A DNA stretch of 50,811 nucleotides from a virus: positions 1 through 50,811 of IMG/VR virus record IMGVR_UViG_3300020179_000049; one strand, given 5' to 3'. This document shows, in pieces, positions 6,799 through 21,734 of this stretch. Under the pieces are notes generated by a model, which ran no database searches, was not told the origin of the DNA, and saw nothing but the letters and a program-made list of their open reading frames with translations. A program made the translations under genes and the position numbers. Numbering within the stretch: the first letter of the stretch is position 1; each line of letters begins with the position of its first letter.

Positions 6799-9228
6799 TT
6801 AGGTCTTAGATGGACGAACAATTGTAACGATTGGACAACCTGCTGCAGTCACTATCGATACGTCTCCAATACGACCATCACCCAGATTTAATTGTGGATC
6901 AGGTGGTTGCACTGCTCCCACAAATCTTAATGCAGAGGCTATATTATCATACACAAAATTTACATGATCATTAGCCCATAAAACAACATCTCCAGCTCTT
7001 GCATCTTGTGGGTTCACACGAACAAACCGATAGTCGTCAATACGAAGTTCAACATCTCTCGAATATGGAGTTTGAACATATCGATATCCATTTTGTTTTA
7101 ATCCAAAATTAACGAATGCCATCGCCCAGTTAGTTTGATCGCTTAAAGTCCAATATTCTCGTGTGAACCCTAAATTTCTCCATAAATCGATTATATTATG
7201 ATTTGATGGTTGTATCACCTTTGATGTTTCAACTCCAGTTTCTCTCCAATAACCCTTTGATGCTAAATCAAGCTGCTTGTCCAGCCATTTTTTTATATCT
7301 GCTGTTTCGTTTAATACAATTATGCTCTTTCCAACAATATTTTTAAGTATACGATCGGAACCTGATTTCGGGGCTGGAGCAATGAATTGCTTAACATTTT
7401 TAAAGGCTGCTGGAAATTTATATGGGTCAGCTTGATACTTTTTCAAAATATTAGTATTTTCTTTATTAATTTCAGCTGAAAATCTTACAACTCGATCTGC
7501 CTCTAAAAACTTCTGAGATAAAGTAGGTGAACCACGTTTTACAATTGATGTTTGTGCTATTGATGTTCCTGTGTTGCTATGTGTTGCAGCCATAATTGTA
7601 GAGGTCTGTGCTATATCAAATTTAAGAGTGTTAGCCTTTATATTAAACGAATCAGCAACAGAAAAATTAACATTTCCGCTAATTTTTGCATTTAAATCGT
7701 TTTCTATTTGTAGATTACAGTTACCAACAATTCTAACGTTAGTGTTTGATTCTAATACGATATTGACCATACCTGCGACATATAAATGATCATCACTCAT
7801 AATAAGTTTATAATTATTTTTAACAATCTTCTCAACCTTTGTTCCGCTCGGATACCATTCAACAAAACTTCCTGCTCTATGTGCAATGTGTACACGCTCC
7901 ATAAGAGGTGTATCATCCATTTCAATAACATGCCCTGATTCAGTTTCTGTTACCTTATTAAATGGATATTCTGTAGAATTAATTGGATTGGGTTCAGCCC
8001 AAGATTCATCATTGGCGCCTAATGCATTTATCAAAGAACGTTCTCTAAATTTTTGAATAATTGTTTTATCGGTATTTGTTATCAAATCACTTAAAGTTGA
8101 TTTCCCTAGATCATCAACATTTGGATAATTTAATGACTTAGCGTCACTATCCTCTGATAAATTTGATTCAAAAACCTGTACCCCAACACCAGAGCCTGCG
8201 ACAGTCATTGGTGTTATATTTGTTAGAGTGTTTGCTCGAGCCGCGATTACTTCGCTTCTGGGGATCGATTTGAATAAATTTGCGGCAGCATGCGCTAAAC
8301 CATCTTCACTTCTGATATATTTTCCTGTTGATGATCTAAGCATGTCAGCACTTAGGAGTTGAGATGCACCAACAATATTGTTTGAAATAATAGCTGATTG
8401 AACACCCGACTTTCTGAAGTCTGTTTTGGTGCCCATATGATATGCATTAAGAGTCAGACCAGCTTTTTGTGTGGCATTAAGTGTATTCCAAACATTGCTC
8501 TCAATAGAAAACTCAGCGCGTTGTAATGATGAAATCACATCTAAATTTAATAGTGCTCGAGCCTGAACTTCAGTAATAGTTGTATTTGCGCCATTTAAAC
8601 CACGAATAATAATCGTATCATTATTAGGAATATCGATAAATCCTGTATTAATCTCGCTCTGAGTAAATTTATGACTATAACCAACAATGTTTTGCTGATC
8701 ATCAGTAAGTGATGGTTTTGCACTAAGAGAAAGTGGAAGATGTATGATAATATTATTGATTACTAATTCTATAATGCCAACGCCATCATTAACAATATTT
8801 CCACTTACATTTGTATAATATCCAGTTTTGGACTCAGGATAATCGATTGAAGATGGTTTTTGTGGTGAGTTACGAATTTGTTCAGCGTTTCTTAAATCAT
8901 TAAACCCAATATCTTCTATTTTAGGAAACTGATTAATTCCAGGTAAAACACCTAATATTGCTGGAGATTGACTATATGAACCATCAAGGTAAAATCCAAT
9001 TACATATTCACCTTCTTTGGGAGTTGAGAACGTTCCACTATTATTAATCGAATACACAGGAATAGCCCAAGGTAAATCCTCTGATGGAATGAGATTTAAA
9101 TCTGAAGTGTGTATTCCAAATATGCGAACACGACATCTCCCGAGTTTCTCAGGGTCATTTCTGTCTTCAACAACTCCAATCCACCATTGGAATCCATCTT
9201 GACCAATAAAATTTTTACGAATTTTCAT
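6799..9228 (-). CDS. 5: gp5-like baseplate hub spike with C-terminal CHAP/NlpC-like domain
   Basis: 809 aa. Residues 1-110 are the gp5/VgrG OB-fold (GFQWWIGVVEDRNDPEKLGR, later GEYVIGFYLDGSYSQSPAI). Around residues 430-540 there is a spike beta-helix region with short repeats (NTNVRIVGNCNLQIENDLN, AKISGNVNFSV). No T4-type lysozyme domain (E-D-T triad) is visible. Instead the last ~120 residues look like a CHAP/TIGR02594-type amidase fold (WAMAFVNFGLKQNGY, then ARAGDVVLWANDHVNF). The usual catalytic Cys of the WCAAF motif is Ala702 here, while the His of DHVNF (residue 755) is kept. gp5 pierces the outer membrane and normally degrades peptidoglycan. This copy may bind rather than cut. Confidence 0.85.
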   Translation of the reverse strand: MKIRKNFIGQDGFQWWIGVVEDRNDPEKLGRCRVRIFGIHTSDLNLIPSEDLPWAIPVYSINNSGTFSTPKEGEYVIGFYLDGSYSQSPAILGVLPGINQFPKIEDIGFNDLRNAEQIRNSPQKPSSIDYPESKTGYYTNVSGNIVNDGVGIIELVINNIIIHLPLSLSAKPSLTDDQQNIVGYSHKFTQSEINTGFIDIPNNDTIIIRGLNGANTTITEVQARALLNLDVISSLQRAEFSIESNVWNTLNATQKAGLTLNAYHMGTKTDFRKSGVQSAIISNNIVGASQLLSADMLRSSTGKYIRSEDGLAHAAANLFKSIPRSEVIAARANTLTNITPMTVAGSGVGVQVFESNLSEDSDAKSLNYPNVDDLGKSTLSDLITNTDKTIIQKFRERSLINALGANDESWAEPNPINSTEYPFNKVTETESGHVIEMDDTPLMERVHIAHRAGSFVEWYPSGTKVEKIVKNNYKLIMSDDHLYVAGMVNIVLESNTNVRIVGNCNLQIENDLNAKISGNVNFSVADSFNIKANTLKFDIAQTSTIMAATHSNTGTSIAQTSIVKRGSPTLSQKFLEADRVVRFSAEINKENTNILKKYQADPYKFPAAFKNVKQFIAPAPKSGSDRILKNIVGKSIIVLNETADIKKWLDKQLDLASKGYWRETGVETSKVIQPSNHNIIDLWRNLGFTREYWTLSDQTNWAMAFVNFGLKQNGYRYVQTPYSRDVELRIDDYRFVRVNPQDARAGDVVLWANDHVNFVYDNIASALRFVGAVQPPDPQLNLGDGRIGDVSIVTAAGCPIVTIVRPSKT

Positions 9229-10550
9229 GAGTTAATCGCTGTGCTCCAATTTGTATTAGTAATTGGATTTATACTGAAATCTATACTAGATGAATCTTTA
9301 CACAACTGCGCATAACAACAATATTTTGTATTTAATAATTGATGCCTTAATCCTGTTATTAGATATTTACCAGACAAATATTTGTCTTCATTTAAATTTT
9401 TAACCTCTGTACTGGCATCATTTGTTGGGATACTAATATAGACAATGTCTCCGACAGACAATGCACTATTACCAGGAATATCGATGTGCAATCGTGTATT
9501 GTTTAATAATGCGAGCCTAGAAGCTCTCATTAGCAGCCATCTATTCATAAGATCCTCTTGAAAAGCTGGAAACATTCGAATGTATCCAGATGCTTGGTCA
9601 ATAGATGTTCCCATTCGATTTTTAGCCAAATTATACGGCAAAAAATTGTTTAAGGTTTTATATCGACTCTGAGATATCGACATTGCTTCACCCTCAACAT
9701 TTCTATTCAATAAATCAAGTTTTATTAATTGGGAAAAAAATGCACCGTTACTAATGCTATCTAAAGCGTCAAACACTTGCCTAAATTCCATTTCATCTAA
9801 TTTATTTTGTTGTGATTGAATATTCTCAAAAGATTGCATATTTTTCGCAGAATAATATAATTTTGTTTTAGGTTGTTGTGAGTATATTGTGCTTAATGAT
9901 ATAAAATTATATCCATTAACACTCTCATAAAAGAAAAATCCTGGTGATAAGCCAGAGGTATCTAATGCAAAAGATGATATCCAATTTATTGCTTCCAACG
10001 GTCTTAAATTTGGAACTATAAGTGGATTTTTTTCAGGAGCAAGCAATAATGTCGATGCTTCTATATTTTTTGCTTGAAATTTTTTATTTGGAATTTTTAA
10101 GTAATCATTTGCGATATTAATTACAATATCAGATAATCTTGCTTCTTTGTAAGACCTTGATACAAAAACTTGCTGGCTTAACAAAAATTCTTCTGAGCAA
10201 AAATGAATTTTATATGTGGCGCTTGAAGTACCACGTAAACCATACTCACTTATTTTATATATTCGAAAAACTTTTTGAAATTTTATGTTACCTGGAGTTT
10301 TGAATACAATTGAAATAAACTCATTACCATACATATTTAATCGAGTAATAATTTCACTCGAATCAGTTATATATATATCACCATTCATAACATTATTAAA
10401 AAGGTCTTCATATATATTAAGTTCAGTAAAAATATAATCAATACCAATAGTGATTCCTGCAGAGTTAATAATTTTTAACTCATCGAGTATAAAATCGTAT
10501 GGTGAAAGCGCACCATCTACAGAGGATTCTCCACTTCCATTTATTACCAT
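9225..10550 (-). CDS. 27: gp27-like baseplate hub subunit
   Basis: 441 aa (T4 gp27 391 aa). It has the hub beta-barrel style start (SPYDFILDELKIINSAGITI, ELNIYEDLFNNVMNGDIYI) and a conserved internal RPLEAINWISSFAL near residue 185, typical of gp27/gpD-type hub proteins, whose trimer forms a pseudo-hexameric tube above the gp5 spike. The C-terminal portion (DIPGNSALSVGDIVYISIP, LSGKYLITGLRHQL) matches the second barrel found in these proteins. Its stop overlaps the gp5 start by 4 nt (ATGA), which supports the gp27-gp5 partnership. No gp27 name is certain without profile comparison. Confidence 0.75.
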   Translation of the reverse strand: MVINGSGESSVDGALSPYDFILDELKIINSAGITIGIDYIFTELNIYEDLFNNVMNGDIYITDSSEIITRLNMYGNEFISIVFKTPGNIKFQKVFRIYKISEYGLRGTSSATYKIHFCSEEFLLSQQVFVSRSYKEARLSDIVINIANDYLKIPNKKFQAKNIEASTLLLAPEKNPLIVPNLRPLEAINWISSFALDTSGLSPGFFFYESVNGYNFISLSTIYSQQPKTKLYYSAKNMQSFENIQSQQNKLDEMEFRQVFDALDSISNGAFFSQLIKLDLLNRNVEGEAMSISQSRYKTLNNFLPYNLAKNRMGTSIDQASGYIRMFPAFQEDLMNRWLLMRASRLALLNNTRLHIDIPGNSALSVGDIVYISIPTNDASTEVKNLNEDKYLSGKYLITGLRHQLLNTKYCCYAQLCKDSSSIDFSINPITNTNWSTAINS

Positions 10551-10551
10551 T

Positions 10552-11457
10552 TTATATTGCCGTCATTAATGATGAAAATTGATTCTCTATGGTGTTTATA
10601 ATGGAAGAATTTGGAATAATAATTTTACGTCTATTTTCATTTAATTCTAACTCATAATCATAAATTGACACTGGAGCGATTGTTGTGGACACAGTTAGAG
10701 TTGTATTACTTCCATCTATTGAACTTATCACATTAAAGGTATTAGAGTATGATGTATTTGTATTAATTGCAACAACATTTTTTGTTGCATAATTATATGA
10801 GTTTGCAGTCACTCTAAATTTTCTTGTCTCACTAAAACTTGGATTATCAGCTGTTCGACGCACCTCTGTTGCTTGGAAATGACTGGTTGTATTTGAAGCC
10901 CATTGATATCCATCTAAATTATTTGTAATACCAATAATTGAATGCGTTTGCGCCGAGGAAACTCCTGAAATATTTCTACTGTTTGCTAGCACTTGTGTAG
11001 GGAATTTAATTTGCAAAACTTTAGTACCAGAATTATATGCAACAACTTTTGCCTCCATTGTCGATTCGACATATGTAGATCCTTGAAATACGACTTCATC
11101 AACAGTATAATTTGAGGGATATGACTCAGTTGTGTTCAGACTAACAGTTAAAGATGCATATTTTTGTTTAATGTATTTTTCAAAATCAAAGGGACCCATT
11201 GCCCAATCAAATTGCGGATCAATAAGTTTATTGGCCAGTAAAATAATCCATTGTTTTTCTGGATCACCATACACTCGATGCGCTATTTGTTCTGGAGTTT
11301 CGCCGCCTTTTATCTCATACTTAAAGTATAAACTAGACTGTGTAATTACAGATTCTAAAAATTTTATACTTGTAGTAATATCAGGCACGATTTTTGCATC
11401 GTTACCTTCTTTATTAATCGAGTAAAATACTCGCGGAAATTTAGCAAAATATGACAT
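10552..11457 (-). CDS. 53: gp53 baseplate wedge subunit with LysM-like domain
   Basis: 301 aa, longer than T4 gp53 (196 aa). The first 100 residues carry the family core: KYEIKGGETPEQIAHRVYGD followed by PEKQWIILLANKLIDPQFDW, a LysM-like fold that clamps wedges together at the hub interface. Residues ~110-300 are a beta-rich extension (repeated Asn/Ser/Thr, ending QFSSLMTAI) absent from T4. The gene is in a tight run: its stop is 1 nt from the gp27-like gene and its ATG overlaps the gp48 stop by one base. The extension is common in aquatic T4-like phages, and its role is not known to me. Confidence 0.88.
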   Translation of the reverse strand: MSYFAKFPRVFYSINKEGNDAKIVPDITTSIKFLESVITQSSLYFKYEIKGGETPEQIAHRVYGDPEKQWIILLANKLIDPQFDWAMGPFDFEKYIKQKYASLTVSLNTTESYPSNYTVDEVVFQGSTYVESTMEAKVVAYNSGTKVLQIKFPTQVLANSRNISGVSSAQTHSIIGITNNLDGYQWASNTTSHFQATEVRRTADNPSFSETRKFRVTANSYNYATKNVVAINTNTSYSNTFNVISSIDGSNTTLTVSTTIAPVSIYDYELELNENRRKIIIPNSSIINTIENQFSSLMTAI

Positions 11458-12587
11458 TAGTATCCATTTTGAATATCCAATTTAGAAAGAATTATTGATT
11501 CCATAAACTCCATTGATAATCTAATCGAAACAGGTTGACCATCTCTAAATGTAGCGAAAGTTGGAGTATCAGCGGAATATTCAACTTGTACCGATGTTAA
11601 CATGCATGGTGCAATTCTAGGTAAGGCTGAATTTTCTTGAAACTTTCCAGTTACCTTTCTTCTTAAAAATTCTATTTCAAAAAGATTTGGTGGAACAAGA
11701 TATCTTGTTCCAGTTCCACCTGCCACTGGGTCGGAATCAACAGATTGACCTCTATCAGCACTCTCAGAATGCGAATGAAATCGAAAGGTTTTAATGATAT
11801 TTAAAAGTTCGTCAGATTCTTTTTGATTTCTTGGGACAAATGTGAATACAAACTGAAATCTTCTATTCTGACTTCCTCCATAAATCTGCTCGAGCATTGG
11901 ATTTAATGCATACCCAAGACCAGCTAAAAATGCTTCAGTAGGTCGTGTTCCAAATATACCAGCTCTACCAGCGAGCTCTGCAACTATTTCCGCCTCGGCT
12001 AAGTTTGGAACGTTAAGTGAAGGTGCTAAAGGATTCGCAGCTGTGAATAAACCCGCTCGTCCTGCTGCTTGATTTATTGAAATTGGTTGATAATCATGTC
12101 TATCTATATTAGTAACGAGTTCAGGCATGTATAGCAATATTGTGTTTTTTAAGTCTTTTGTTCTTTTTCCGTAACTAGCATCTTCAAGAGATGCACCAGG
12201 TGTTCCTCCACCTATAAAAGATAAACCAAATCTACCTAAAACAGCTAAATTTTCGATTGTCTCTGCACTGGTTCCTGGAGGAAGTCTAAGAAAAGCGAGC
12301 GCAGGGGGAGATGCAGCGATGCTACGAGATGCACCGAAGGTTGCAAAAGCAGCTGCATTCACAGGAAAATTTCTTCCATTCGAATTCAGATATTGCGATG
12401 GTGGTTGTTTTACTATTGGTGTTTCACTTACGACATTTAATTTTGCTTTATTCTGCGCATATACTTTAAATCGCACCGCATTTTTATACATCCCTGATTG
12501 GTCGCCTAACTCTTGAGGGAAATATAGATGTTTTCTATTGTTAATTTCACCATAGTCTCTTTCTAATCTTTGAGCATCTGTTGACAT
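11457..12587 (-). CDS. 48: gp48-like baseplate tail-tube cap protein
   Basis: 376 aa (T4 gp48 364 aa). It has the tail-tube-family core in the C-terminal half: NRRFQFVFTFVPRNQKESDE followed by IIKTFRFHSHSE, and a final section with NLFEIEFLRRK and SVQVEYSADTPTFATFRDGQ. This fold is shared by gp48, gp54 and the tube protein gp19, and forms rings between hub and tube. The first gene of the leftward baseplate block, it starts 20 nt from the divergent gp4 gene. gp48 is chosen over gp54 because a second tube-initiator-like gene (13592-14383) fits gp54 better by size. An AGGAAT motif precedes the ATG. Confidence 0.78.
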   Translation of the reverse strand: MSTDAQRLERDYGEINNRKHLYFPQELGDQSGMYKNAVRFKVYAQNKAKLNVVSETPIVKQPPSQYLNSNGRNFPVNAAAFATFGASRSIAASPPALAFLRLPPGTSAETIENLAVLGRFGLSFIGGGTPGASLEDASYGKRTKDLKNTILLYMPELVTNIDRHDYQPISINQAAGRAGLFTAANPLAPSLNVPNLAEAEIVAELAGRAGIFGTRPTEAFLAGLGYALNPMLEQIYGGSQNRRFQFVFTFVPRNQKESDELLNIIKTFRFHSHSESADRGQSVDSDPVAGGTGTRYLVPPNLFEIEFLRRKVTGKFQENSALPRIAPCMLTSVQVEYSADTPTFATFRDGQPVSIRLSMEFMESIILSKLDIQNGY

Positions 12588-13044: not shown

Positions 13045-13592
13045 TGGCAGCGCTTTTAGAAAAAATCACACGTGAGATGTCTAAAAAAGGCATCAAACCT
13101 CGAACTGAAGAAGCAAAATTATTTGCTCAACAAATGATTTCGAAGGCTTCGATTCCAATGAATCGATCAAATGTGCTAAACGATGCAAAACGTATTACGG
13201 CATTCGCAGCAGTTGGTCGTATGTTTATGTTTAGATACGATCCACTCACTAAAGAAAAACTTCCACAATGGGATGAGTTTCCTTTGGTGATTCCTACAAC
13301 AGTAACGGGCGATGGATTTACAGGTATAAATCTACACTTTTTAGATGTTGATAATCGTATATCTATCTTAGATGGGCTATCAATCTTTTTAAATAATGAT
13401 AAATATGATAATTCTACGAGATTTTTACTTTCATATGATTTACTTAAAACTATGAGTCGATTTTCTTCAATACGCGATTGCATTAGAAGGTATCTATACG
13501 ATCAAATGGTCTCTCCGTTGCTTTATGTCGAACCTAATAATTGGCAAACAGCAATATTTTTACCTGTAGCAAATATGAGGAGCTATGGTTGA
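13044..13592 (+). CDS. conserved T4-like phage protein, function unknown
   Basis: 182 aa, soluble, no membrane segment. It has a basic helical N-terminus (LLEKITREMSKKGIKPRTEE), then an aromatic-rich core (GRMFMFRYDPLTKEKLPQWD, TGDGFTGINLHFLDVDNRIS) that I have a general impression of in aquatic T4-like phages next to gp4. T4 itself places gp2 (DNA-end protector) and gp53 beside gp4, but I see no clear gp2 signature, so no name is given. Translationally coupled on both sides (TAATG upstream, TGATG downstream), so it is part of the head-tail completion operon and probably a virion or assembly protein. Confidence 0.7.
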   Translation: MAALLEKITREMSKKGIKPRTEEAKLFAQQMISKASIPMNRSNVLNDAKRITAFAAVGRMFMFRYDPLTKEKLPQWDEFPLVIPTTVTGDGFTGINLHFLDVDNRISILDGLSIFLNNDKYDNSTRFLLSYDLLKTMSRFSSIRDCIRRYLYDQMVSPLLYVEPNNWQTAIFLPVANMRSYG

Positions 13593-14383
13593 TGTCTCTA
13601 AACCCGAAAAAACTATTAAACATTAATAATTTTTTATCCGAGGTGCGAAAAAATGGATTCACTCGAGATAATAGAACTGTAGTTGCCATTCTCCCACCTG
13701 CAGAGTTACGAGACATATTTAAGTTCAAACTCCCATCATTATTTCGTAACGATTTTCTCACCTTTTATGCACAGTCTGCGGCTTTTCCTGGAGTCAAGTT
13801 AGGCACTCTTGCAACAAATTATGGTGGACCACTTATTGAATATGCGAGAAGCACAGATTATGACAATACACAAATTATGTTTATGCTTGACGACGAAATG
13901 AGACAAAAAACGTTTTTTGATGCATGGATGAATTTAGTAAACCCAAAAGAAAATAAATTTGATTTTCGTTATAGAGATGAATATATAGGTGAAATGTTAA
14001 TTTCTCAAGTATCCGAAACTGGAAAATATTATTCATATGCTGTAAAACTTTTTGAAGTTTTTCCAGTTGCTATGAATGAGATTCGTTCAGACTGGATTAA
14101 TGCTGGTGATGCATCTAGACTTGAAGTGAATTTTTCCTATCGATATTGGAAAAATTTAAGATCAGATAAATTCGAGAGAGATGATGCAGATGCTGATGAG
14201 ATATTAGAAAGAATCGATGTAATTGGAGAAAGAAAACCTGTAGAGGTTCTTGAAGGTATCGATGTGATCGGAAGAAGAAATGAATCTGAGATACTTGAAA
14301 GTATCGATGTGATCGGAAGAAGAAATCAATCTGAGATACTTGAAGGTATCAATGTGATTGGAAGAAGAAAAAAACGTACATAA
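13592..14383 (+). CDS. 54: gp54-like baseplate-tail tube initiator with C-terminal IDVIGRR repeats
   Basis: 263 aa from the ATG at 13592, chosen over an upstream in-frame ATG at 13541 because GAGGAG lies 10-13 nt before it and it overlaps the preceding stop (TGATG). Residues ~60-200 are a tube-type domain (AAFPGVKLGTLATNYGGPLI, FFDAWMNLVNPKENKFDFRY, RDEYIGEMLISQV, ending NFSYRYWKNL), as in gp54/gp19. After residue 200 the protein leaves the family and carries four ~15-aa repeats (EILESIDVIGRRNQS pattern) ending RRKKRT. The same motif recurs in the gene at 15327. gp54 starts tube polymerisation on the hub. Confidence 0.75.
   Translation: MSLNPKKLLNINNFLSEVRKNGFTRDNRTVVAILPPAELRDIFKFKLPSLFRNDFLTFYAQSAAFPGVKLGTLATNYGGPLIEYARSTDYDNTQIMFMLDDEMRQKTFFDAWMNLVNPKENKFDFRYRDEYIGEMLISQVSETGKYYSYAVKLFEVFPVAMNEIRSDWINAGDASRLEVNFSYRYWKNLRSDKFERDDADADEILERIDVIGERKPVEVLEGIDVIGRRNESEILESIDVIGRRNQSEILEGINVIGRRKKRT
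14200..14370 (+). repeat. four 45-bp units encoding IDVIGRR repeats
   Basis: In-frame tandem units at the 3' end of the gp54-like gene encode EILERIDVIGERKPV, EVLEGIDVIGRRNES, EILESIDVIGRRNQS and EILEGINVIGRRKKR. The last three are highly similar at DNA level, indicating recent tandem duplication. The peptide pattern E-x-[IV]-D-V-I-G-R-R resembles TonB boxes. Confidence 0.85.
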
Positions 14384-14412
14384 TAGATTATATTCATAAT
14401 ATGGAGTAAATT

Positions 14413-15135
14413 ATGCCATTACCAAAAATTGAATTGCCAACTTATAAATTAAGACTAAATTCATTAGAAAAAGAGATAACATTTAGACCCTTTGTCGTGA
14501 AAGAAGAAAAAATTCTTTTAATGGCATTGGAGTCTAATGATTATGAAAACAGTTTGGATGCGATCAAACAAATCATTCACAATTGTGTTTTAGATGAATT
14601 GAATGTCGATTTATTACCATTATATGAGATTGAATACTTGTTCTTAAATTTAAGAGCAAGATCTATTGGTGAAGTGGTTTCACTTCAATTTATTTGTGAG
14701 CATGTTAATGAAAATAATAAAACGTGTAAAGGGAAAATGGAACTAGATGTTGATTTATTAAAAGTTGCAATGGAACATAAACCATTCAGTAATAATATAA
14801 AATTAACTGATAGTGTTGGCATAAAATTGCGTTATCCGACATTTAATATTTCAAAAATTTTGATTGAAAAATCTGACACAAAAGATATGCCGATCGAAAT
14901 TCTTAAGGAGTGCACTGAATATCTCTATGATGAAGAACAAGTTTATAAATTGAATGAAATGTTAGAGAATGAATTTGAAAATTTTATTAATAATTTGACC
15001 ACTGATCAGTATAAAAAAATTAAAAATTTCTTTACAGAAATGCCCATGCTTCGTCACGAATCAACATTAGTTTGTAAAAAGTGTGGTAAAGAACACTTTA
15101 TCAAACTGGAGGGTCTCCTCGATTTTTTCGTATAA
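14413..15135 (+). CDS. 26: gp26-like baseplate hub / tail assembly chaperone-type protein
   Basis: 240 aa (T4 gp26 208 aa). Opening PLPKIELPTYKLRLNSLEKE, then RPFVVKEEKILLMALESNDY and EIEYLFLNLRARSIGEVVSL, are characteristic of the T4 baseplate gp26 family. It contains two metal-binding-like clusters: C-x-H...C near residues 95-110 (ICEHVNENNKTCKG) and CKKCGKEH close to the end. gp26 is required for hub assembly. The frame ends in GAT TTT TTC GTA TAA, and the T TTT TTC string one codon before the stop is a classic -1 slippery site leading into the gp51 frame. A GGAG SD precedes the ATG. Confidence 0.88.
   Translation: MPLPKIELPTYKLRLNSLEKEITFRPFVVKEEKILLMALESNDYENSLDAIKQIIHNCVLDELNVDLLPLYEIEYLFLNLRARSIGEVVSLQFICEHVNENNKTCKGKMELDVDLLKVAMEHKPFSNNIKLTDSVGIKLRYPTFNISKILIEKSDTKDMPIEILKECTEYLYDEEQVYKLNEMLENEFENFINNLTTDQYKKIKNFFTEMPMLRHESTLVCKKCGKEHFIKLEGLLDFFV
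15123..15129 (+). other. candidate -1 ribosomal frameshift site T TTT TTC
   Basis: The heptamer is in the correct X XXY YYZ phase relative to gp26 and lies one codon before its stop. Slipping back one base continues without interruption through CGT ATA AGC CTT CGT into the gp51 frame, giving a 304-aa gp26-gp51 fusion (239 + 65 residues). The -1 frame upstream of the gp51 ATG is open and protein-like (RISLRNEKLKSYY). Confidence 0.6.
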
Positions 15136-15167
15136 GCCTTCGTAATGAAAAATTGAAATCTTATTAT

Positions 15168-15326
15168 ATGACTAATTTTGCGTTGATGCAGTTTCATAAT
15201 TATTCTCTTACGGAACTTGAGCAAATGCTTCCGTGGGAAAGAGCAATGTATGTTTCTTTGATTGCAAATCAAGTGAAAGAAGAAAACGACAGAATACGAG
15301 AACGACAATTAAAGAGAAAAAAATAA
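15168..15326 (+). CDS. 51: gp51-like baseplate hub assembly protein
   Basis: 52 aa from ATG 15168: MTNFALMQFHNYSLTELEQM, then LPWERAMYVSLIANQVKEEN and a basic helical tail ending LKRKK. The FALMQFHNYSL...LPWER pattern is that of gp51-type hub assembly catalysts found after gp26. No convincing SD precedes this ATG, which fits production mainly as a -1 frameshift extension of gp26, as for lambda G/GT-type tail chaperones. The stop abuts the ATG of the next gene (TAAATGG). Confidence 0.75.
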   Translation: MTNFALMQFHNYSLTELEQMLPWERAMYVSLIANQVKEENDRIRERQLKRKK

Positions 15327-16697
15327 ATGGCATATACTCCAAGTATCGATACTCTACGTGGTAATTTTTCTAGTTTTGCTGCTAGAGGAGCAGAACCATC
15401 CTTTCGATTCTCACAACGATTTGGTGGTTTTCAGGGATCACTAGATGTGGCGCGACAATTTGGAGGTGAGCCAGATGATGCGATACGGAGAGCAGTTCCA
15501 GATTTTAGATCATTTGCCAATAAATTAAATAGAAGAGATGATGAGCCTATCGAACCTACTACAAATCCTACATTCACATCAAATAGTTTTGCTGAACTAG
15601 AAACAAAATCTGAACCAACGACATCAACTGTTCCACAAGATTTTTTGGACAACTTAACTGCATCTAAAAGTTATATAGAAAGAACTGAAAGTGATGATGG
15701 CTTATTAAATGCTGCTGCAACATTAAGAAGCACTGAAGATACAGCAGCAACCTTAGCACAAAATCCGTCATTTAGTCCAGCTCAAATCCAAGCAATTTTA
15801 GACAGAGCTCGTAATGCTTCTGGCTTTACAAGAATTACTTCAGGATTACGACAACCAAATCTAGATCGATCACTTATCGCTCCATTTCTGGGACAAGAAA
15901 TTATCGAAAGAATCGATGATGGTGAACGATCAATAATAACAGAACCTCAGCCTACATTATTACCTGAACCTGTTCCTGCACCCGAACCTGCATTATTACC
16001 TGAACCTGTTCCTGCACCCGAACCTGTCGCTCTCCCACAACCATTCATTCCATTTGTGCCACCAGCTCCAGCTGTTAGACCTGAGCCAACATTCACCAGA
16101 GCCTCTCGGAGAAGTTCCATGGATGATGAAGAAGAAATTGAATCAATAGATGTAATCGGTAGGCGTAATGCGGGTGGTGACGAGGAAATTGAATCAATAG
16201 ATATAATAGGCAAAGGTAGACGTGGTGTGGGTGGTGACGGGCAAATAGAATCAATAGATGTACAAGGATCTAGACTCTATGATCGTCCAGACAATCCATA
16301 TGAGAGATTTAAAGCACTATACGCTGATTTTTATACTGGTGGGCGAGGCGCAGAAACATTAAAAGAATTTAATCGTTTAGAGGATAGTGGCGAAATAGAT
16401 AAAATCGCATTAAATTCTAAACGACTTCGTCCAGTTTCTGATGAAAATTTAATGCGTAGTGACACTAATGCAATTATTAATGCCAAAAATGAAAAAGACT
16501 CTCTTATTAATGAAACACCATTTTATGAACGTAATAGTGATATGGGCAGAGGCACAACTGTGATTAATAATAACAGCACACAAATGCTTGCACCAAATTC
16601 CTCTGATGGTTCTAAAACTTCTAGAGTGTTTAGTGATGACAGCACATTCAATCGTCATGCCGCTGCTGATTTATTTCATCCAAATTACGGACCATAA
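15327..16697 (+). CDS. proline-rich repeat protein in tape-measure position, function unknown
   Basis: 456 aa, no transmembrane segment or long coiled coil. The N-terminus has low-complexity Phe/Arg-rich sequence (FSSFAARGAEPSFRFSQRFG). Residues ~205-250 are Pro/Glu/Ala-rich with a perfect 36-bp DNA repeat (LLPEPVPAPEPA twice). Residues ~268-318 carry three copies of the IESIDVIGRR motif shared with the gp54-like protein. The C-terminus is an Asn/Ser tail with TTVINNNSTQML and ends LFHPNYGP. It follows gp26/gp51, where lambda-type order would predict the tape measure, but it is shorter than T4 gp29 (590 aa) and does not look helical. A hub or tail-interior role is inference. Confidence 0.75.
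   Translation: MAYTPSIDTLRGNFSSFAARGAEPSFRFSQRFGGFQGSLDVARQFGGEPDDAIRRAVPDFRSFANKLNRRDDEPIEPTTNPTFTSNSFAELETKSEPTTSTVPQDFLDNLTASKSYIERTESDDGLLNAAATLRSTEDTAATLAQNPSFSPAQIQAILDRARNASGFTRITSGLRQPNLDRSLIAPFLGQEIIERIDDGERSIITEPQPTLLPEPVPAPEPALLPEPVPAPEPVALPQPFIPFVPPAPAVRPEPTFTRASRRSSMDDEEEIESIDVIGRRNAGGDEEIESIDIIGKGRRGVGGDGQIESIDVQGSRLYDRPDNPYERFKALYADFYTGGRGAETLKEFNRLEDSGEIDKIALNSKRLRPVSDENLMRSDTNAIINAKNEKDSLINETPFYERNSDMGRGTTVINNNSTQMLAPNSSDGSKTSRVFSDDSTFNRHAAADLFHPNYGP
15955..16026 (+). repeat. two perfect 36-bp tandem repeats (PEP-rich)
   Basis: Identical units at 15955-15990 and 15991-16026 encode ALLPEPVPAPEP-type sequence inside the 456-aa protein. Proline-rich PEPxPEP segments usually form extended rigid linkers, as in TonB itself. 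Confidence 0.9.
16131..16275 (+). repeat. three IESIDVIGRR-type motifs
   Basis: Encoded sequence EEIESIDVIGRRNAGG, EEIESIDIIGKGRRGV and QIESIDVQGSRLYDR, directly after the proline-rich linker. The same core occurs four times at the end of the gp54-like protein. The third copy (IESIDVQGSRL) is the closest to proteobacterial TonB-box sequences. Confidence 0.85.
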
Positions 16698-21259: not shown

Positions 21260-21299
21260 ATTCTTATCTCCTATGTGTGTTGTGTGTGTCATTATATAA

Positions 21300-21596
21300 A
21301 GAAGGGTGGGCTTTCGCCCACCGTCCTGACTCGTTCTGTTACCAAGTGAGTCAACTCTGGAAAACTTCAACTGCAATTAAGCAGCTAATGGAAGTTCCTG
21401 ATCGTAATATGCATCATTTGCATTTACAGTTTTTGCGCTGATTAAGTCAGTCGCCTCACTGGTTGCCGTCGGTTTATTACTTGCCCTGTCGAAGCCATTT
21501 CTTCCCCGTCAATTGGTGGAGAAGGTGGGAGTCGAACCCACGTCCAGAACACTTTTAGTCGTCAGTTTACAACCATTAATCAACTAAAAATTGTGG
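21300..21596 (-). ncRNA. ssrA: tmRNA, circularly permuted two-piece form
   Basis: On the minus strand the acceptor piece comes first (about 21596 to 21514): T-arm GTGGG-TTCGACT-CCCAC, acceptor strand CTTCTCC and encoded ACCA ending at 21514. Six bases later the coding piece begins at 21507 with GGGGAAGAAATGGCTTCGAC, whose first seven bases pair with CTTCTCC. The resume codon and tag (21421-21380) read ANDAYYDQELPLAA and end in TAA (21379-21377). The 3'-half-before-5'-half order is the permuted arrangement known from alphaproteobacteria, some betaproteobacteria and cyanobacteria. tmRNA rescues stalled ribosomes and tags products for proteolysis. The outer ends are estimates. Confidence 0.93.
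21305..21322 (-). terminator. Hairpin closing the tmRNA coding piece
   Basis: Minus-strand GGTGGGC-GAAA-GCCCACC followed by CTTCTTTATAT. It lies 55 nt after the tag stop codon, so it may be the 3' end of the tmRNA precursor and its terminator. Confidence 0.6.
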
Positions 21597-21734
21597 TTTA
21601 GATTGTTCACTTAATAATTTTTGCTGTTGTTCTAAATGCTTTTTATACTGTTCATTCGTCATTGCATGTAGACCAACACAAACACCAGTTGGGCTACGAC
21701 CACATCCACATTTAATTTCTTTTACCTCTGTCAT
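21576..21734 (-). CDS. tiny CDGSH-like cysteine/histidine protein
   Basis: 52 aa, ATG at 21734. MTEVKEIKCGCGRSPTGVCV then GLHAMTNEQYKKHLEQQQK. The spacing C9-x-C11-x7-C19-x3-H23 is close to the [2Fe-2S] CDGSH signature C-x-C-x2-S-x3-P-x-C-D-G-x-H (one residue shorter, DG replaced by VG). The C-terminal half is a short Gln-rich helix. Its 3' end overlaps the 5' end of the tmRNA acceptor piece by about 20 nt. Binding of Fe-S or zinc is inference. Confidence 0.7.
   Translation of the reverse strand: MTEVKEIKCGCGRSPTGVCVGLHAMTNEQYKKHLEQQQKLLSEQSKPQFLVD

Follow-up and report, generated by a model that had tools for sequence, protein, structure and literature searches.

A recurrent short motif with partial likeness to TonB boxes on tube-base proteins of uncultured freshwater T4-like phages

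Two open questions about T4-like phages are raised by a tail locus in which one short motif recurs on separate proteins: which contacts hold the tube-base complex together, and what meets the tip of the tube in the periplasm ahead of DNA passage through the inner membrane. In T4, the tube grows on a platform of gp48 and gp54, and gp29 is incorporated into the baseplate in an unfolded state (PMC3004832). We analysed this locus in a 50,811-nt stretch of DNA (the window), positions 1 to 50,811 of IMG/VR virus record IMGVR_UViG_3300020179_000049, which derives from an uncultured virus. The T4-like tail genes of the window comprise gp53-like, gp48-like (minus strand), gp4-like and gp2-like genes, a tube-fold protein, a gp26-like protein, a frame in the gp51 position and a 456-aa orphan (Table 1).

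Table 1. Tail features of the window relevant to the repeated motif
Feature	Position	Strand	Evidence or detail
gp48-like tail-tube cap protein	11457..12587	-	PHROG 230, E 1.7e-47; PF11091
gp54-like tail-tube-fold protein (baseplate-tube junction / tube initiator)	13541..14383	+	PHROG 45 tail tube, E 3.9e-26
Four C-terminal motif copies in gp54-like protein: ILERIDVIGERK, VLEGIDVIGRRN, ILESIDVIGRRN, ILEGINVIGRRK	14201..14371	+	45 bp apart
gp26-like baseplate hub/chaperone protein	14413..15135	+	PF12322, E 6.1e-57; PHROG 150
Small frame in gp51 (hub assembly) position	15090..15326	+	Synteny with Mosig; frame also in relatives
456-aa motif-bearing orphan, last gene of the tail cluster	15327..16697	+	No family match
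Proline-rich linker of orphan	15951..16027	+	36-bp tandem duplication, 97% identical (recent)
Three motif copies in orphan: EIESIDVIGRRN, EIESIDIIGKGR, QIESIDVQGSRL	16134..16277	+	First codons 16134, 16185, 16242

The initial annotation had described four motif copies ending the gp54-like protein and three more following the proline-rich linker of the orphan, and both descriptions were borne out. Tandem Repeats Finder detected an array in gp54 with a 45-bp period and 3.9 copies; the four copies of this 15-residue unit make up the final 60 residues of the protein, their 12-residue units beginning at 14201, 14246, 14291 and 14336, and the orphan copies come after the linker at the codons listed in Table 1. 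The consensus of the motif was [ED]-x-[LI]-[ETD]-[SGE]-[IV]-[DTV]-V-x-G-[RTK]-[RT]. The gp26-like protein, which sits between both motif-bearing proteins of the window, is without it. A third motif protein, absent from the annotation, is gp48, which bears the repeats at its N-terminus in relatives. Comparison of gp48 N-termini across the clade found no repeats in that of the window, in which the segment RLE..KHLYFPQEL is a possible vestige of them.

Relatives were collected via gp26 and gp54, and the near clade consisted of 26 further IMG/VR contigs whose gp26 was 68-82% identical. The results showed gp54 repeats in every near-clade contig, with no exception, the C-terminal extension consisting of 3-5 motif copies. 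The orphan carried 2-4 copies wherever a contig reached far enough into the gene, and every relative whose gp48 was read had 2-4 copies at the N-terminus of that protein, the exceptions being the window and its sisters L095 and L051, whose lack of them looks like a loss; copy number per protein across the clade was 2-5. A 13-position motif matrix was then scanned over clade proteins totalling about 103,000 residues, a 108-kb contig included, and scores above 14 bits were confined to the three motif-bearing tail proteins, where 0.1 would be expected in a shuffled set; because these same repeats trained the matrix, what counts as informative is the absence of any other clade protein above 14 bits. 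In the same scan, the motif was not found in the wedge or hub proteins of the window. The clade is one of uncultured freshwater T4-like phages carrying a common motif on up to three tube-base proteins.

Beyond the near clade, no such array was present in the 51 next-nearest gp54-like loci, and more distant loci, with low-complexity sequence masked, gave no convincing repeat common to neighbouring tail genes. The consensus array had no match among phages by tblastn with the low-complexity filter on, and no convincing match in the PDB; the collection searched held no close cultured phage (best gp26 identity, 39%). Distant gp54 homologues also have C-terminal extensions beyond the tube domain, of unrelated sequence. 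The gp54-like protein of L028 (L028:1343-2140; 51% gp26 identity) ends in a repeat of its own, GGxWSxGPP x3, on a contig that lacks gp48 and whose end cuts the gene in the tape-measure position. Upstream of the tail genes, L123 (L123:947-2877) has a tandem run of five small paralogues (129-147 aa, mutual identity about 40-69%), which also occur in L075, L076 and L124.

The identity of the motif proteins was assessed by structure, profile and gene order. The gp54-like protein likely starts at the ATG at 13592, which overlaps the stop codon of gp2. The model of this protein, of modest confidence (pLDDT 51), best matched the KP1 baseplate-interface chain 9f4a_BQ and the T4 baseplate chain 5iv5_BG (Z 11-12, model residues 28-201), and its gene order, beside gp2 and gp26, is that of the tube initiator in Pelagibacter phage Mosig. 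With a tail-tube fold and a junction position, the protein is best read as gp54; since the fold is also found in gp19, the choice of gp54 over gp19 rests on position and chain size. Like T4 gp54, it has a C-terminal extension after the tube domain, but in the clade this extension is replaced by the motif copies. For the KP1 chain that aligns to the model, 295 residues are modelled at the tube/sheath interface (9f4a) versus 220 in the pre-assembled cup (9f4b). If both KP1 chains are gp54, as we read them, these lengths suggest that tails of this kind order upon tail assembly. The repeats themselves had pLDDT 30-46 in single-chain models, too uncertain for use. The gp48-like protein resembles T4 gp48 in matching PHROG 230 and T4_tail_cap, with the PF11091 match above the cut-off placing it in the T4 gp48 family; it differs in the N-terminal copies of relatives, which the window does not have.

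The orphan is located where related phages have a large tape-measure-like gene. Like T4 gp29 and other tape measures, it lies beside gp26/gp51 and has a size in their range, but it differs from them in sequence, in its mid-protein motif array and in a low-confidence model (pLDDT 48), mostly helical or disordered, without one long helix. PHROG, Pfam, phage tblastn and profile searches, including one against the 655-aa protein of Mosig, gave no match to a tape measure or any family. The tape-measure reading comes from gene position alone, and the orphan may not be one. In Mu, the C-terminus of the tape measure belongs to the sealed baseplate centre (PMC11915804).

Motif variants were found to change in parallel within genomes. 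In L018, L094 and L026, the majority of copies in the motif proteins were of the V-x-V-x-G-[TN] type (VTVTGTR type), and L095 and L051 had G to S in gp54 and orphan alike. With gp26 and gp54-core distance held constant, partial Mantel tests gave r 0.48 (p 0.004) for gp54 and gp48 and a marginal r 0.38 (p 0.05) for gp54 and the orphan, and gp48-orphan covariation was not beyond phylogeny (partial r -0.10), each over 8-12 genomes that represent fewer independent lineages. Parallel change beyond phylogeny is therefore suggestive, given the few independent lineages.

Based on the sequence comparisons, we tentatively favour the reading that the repeats are, quite possibly, a multivalent beta-strand tag that binds the tube-base proteins together. 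The short-linear-motif arrays would sit on flexible ends and linkers (the gp48-like N-terminus, the gp54-like C-terminus and the middle of the orphan), and each copy would act as a beta strand, pairing with other copies or with a single tail subunit common to all. As tube growth starts, many weak contacts could then tie the orphan and the two hexameric rings, of gp48 and of gp54, to one another, the arrays serving as a clade-specific adhesive that holds the axial tube-base complex. The initial annotation had offered, as an alternative to TonB, a tag linking the two proteins; this fits at least as well as TonB and explains both the parallel variation and the restriction of the motif to what are now three proteins. 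We prefer the tie to TonB because mutual binding predicts that several proteins carry more than one copy and that these change in parallel, and because some lineages do not keep the TonB likeness. Confinement of the motif to axial proteins is compatible both with a tie within the virion and with a periplasmic contact.

Several observations weigh against the tag. Pairing of the gp54 and orphan arrays through opposite charges was considered and not seen, the net charges of the two sets of repeats not being consistently opposed. Variation between gp48 and the orphan had no excess over phylogeny, the orphan has no detectable tape-measure homology, and the gp48 repeats are not essential in the window's subclade, which has none. 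A tail-only partner also leaves the TonB-box likeness unexplained. A motif that marks gp48, gp54 and the orphan and changes in parallel offers a handle on which of these parts touch.

The likeness to TonB boxes was measured against 40 TonB-dependent receptors, picked by plug domain from eight bacterial genomes. An unguided expectation-maximisation motif finder, run on the receptor N-termini before the plug, yielded a matrix reading L-[DE]-x-[VI]-x-V-T-G-S-R, on which most real boxes score roughly 10-25. The phage repeats had a median of 9.6, compared with 0.5 for other phage peptides of equal hydrophobic/glycine pattern (G fixed), and 48% of repeats reached at least 10 bits, compared with 2% of the pattern-matched peptides. 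Some phage copies equalled real boxes (LESITVTGRRR, 20.8 bits; LEEVVVSGTRQ, 19.9 bits), and LDTIDVAGRRS was found in a real receptor. The likeness was strong in L005, L087 and L018, moderate in the window (copies 0.3-13.5, those of gp54 3.7-9.2) and absent in the gp54 copies of L095 and L051 (about -4 to -15). The proposed TonB-box shape was partly supported: the repeats as a set lie far above pattern-matched peptides, but the copies of the window are mediocre and the gp54 copies of its sisters negative. Common descent of the repeats from one motif means that coincidence is fairly put at about 2%, one draw at roughly 1 in 50, instead of at the nominal p value. Scanning bacterial genomes for [LF][DE]xIDVxGRR returned at least 80 loci; among the matches listed, one was recognised by eye as a TonB-dependent receptor and many others looked like chance frames, and this form alone is not diagnostic of such receptors. 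The Pro-Glu pattern of the orphan linker, previously likened to TonB, is confined to part of the clade, and without conservation that argument falls.

Functional TonB boxes are a rather unlikely but still live explanation of these sequences. On contraction of the sheath, the capped tube with gp48, gp54 and the tape measure would be carried into the periplasm, where many box strands would pair with host TonB at its C-terminal domain and the tube would dock on the energised ExbB/ExbD/TonB complex or jam it. Group B colicins use TonB boxes, and the phage motif shares with the boxes of receptors and these colicins the residues and spacing of L-[DE]-x-[IV]-x-V-x-G-x-R as well as a short strand in a flexible segment of proteins reaching the periplasm. 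The parallel variation could track host TonB. In T4, gp48 and gp54 ride the tube tip into the periplasm on contraction, and a spike fragment binds PpiD, an inner-membrane-anchored periplasmic chaperone (PMC7600766). Against these points stand the single ancestral motif and the scores that are weak or negative in some lineages. The motif is also multiple and C-terminal or internal, on tail-tube proteins without plug or barrel: the repeats end the tube protein, start the cap protein or sit mid-orphan, whereas the box of a receptor is found N-terminally in the mature protein, directly ahead of the plug domain, and to our knowledge is single. No plug domain (PF07715) was found in the window, its hub protein is without the motif, and the literature yielded no published TonB-box tail protein. 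That a periplasm-entering tail part bears dozens of TonB boxes, with the tube docking on or drawing force from TonB-ExbB-ExbD, is an unlikely proposal; were TonB the partner, a contractile tail would be drawing on the host energy system by a new route.

It is also quite improbable, judged from the same comparisons, that the repeats bind neither TonB nor one another but another host factor, such as a protein of the inner membrane or a periplasmic chaperone, or else a phage assembly chaperone particular to the clade. The PpiD contact in T4 offers a precedent, and the motif is restricted to proteins delivered with the tube; however, no candidate partner was found, and the TonB likeness would then be coincidental.

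Functionless low-complexity tandem duplication, copied between neighbouring genes, would account for the period-45 array, for its varying copy number and for the 36-bp repeat in the adjacent orphan linker, the latter recent where the motif copies are old. Within gp54, copies shared codons at 0.56 of identical residues versus 0.40 expected. Between genes, however, codon agreement at identical residues was 0.43-0.49 versus 0.40-0.42 expected from codon usage, and window gp54 and orphan copies had up to 10/12 residues in common yet only 4/10 codons there. Near-expectation agreement indicates that the between-gene likeness is no recent copy and was kept as protein; on this codon evidence it represents old divergence and appears to be maintained by selection. 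The I, V and G positions were retained in three proteins that are not homologous and between genomes that have diverged strongly, and gp48 lies on the strand opposite to gp54, two genes away. Functionless duplication is already disfavoured and, in our judgement, very improbable.

Sheath arms exchange beta strands with each other, and the gp54/gp48 arrays might likewise touch the first sheath ring or wedge, with the orphan as an outer baseplate component and not a tape measure. The gp54-size KP1 chain, with more residues in the structure that includes tube and sheath, and an orphan without tape-measure homology, would agree with this, but gp48 and gp54 depart with the tube on contraction (PMC7600766) and the wedge and hub proteins of the window bear no motif, which makes it the most improbable of the readings. 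Prohead-protease sites were rejected by eye: at the E-S or E-G step, the orphan copies do not retain the hydrophobic P3 residue of T4 gp21 sites.

A TonB-dependent receptor is encoded by the 108-kb relative L127 (L127:9793-12294; PF00593, E 3e-36; PF07715, E 3.4e-13). It has a signal peptide, the TonB box EPLEEVTITSIRD, a plug and a barrel, and adjoins a calcineurin-like phosphoesterase (metallophosphatase; 8991-9764). Its box was the sole hit of the tail-motif matrix above 12 bits outside the trio in full contigs, with 0.65 expected by chance, and the receptor is not counted as evidence on the tail motif. The closest bacterial relatives found were only 32-34% identical in both bacterial classes searched, which pointed to neither as the host class, and the receptor may be a nutrient-uptake gene. 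In the window, a putative porin (PF16930; 43348-44319) and a PstS-type PBP-like periplasmic binding protein (PF12849; 44349-45347) adjoin on the minus strand and are possibly a phage phosphate-uptake pair. The window also encodes 23 tRNA genes at 29-38 kb and a tmRNA with tag ANDAYYDQELPLAA (21286-21606, minus strand), a gene also present in Mosig.
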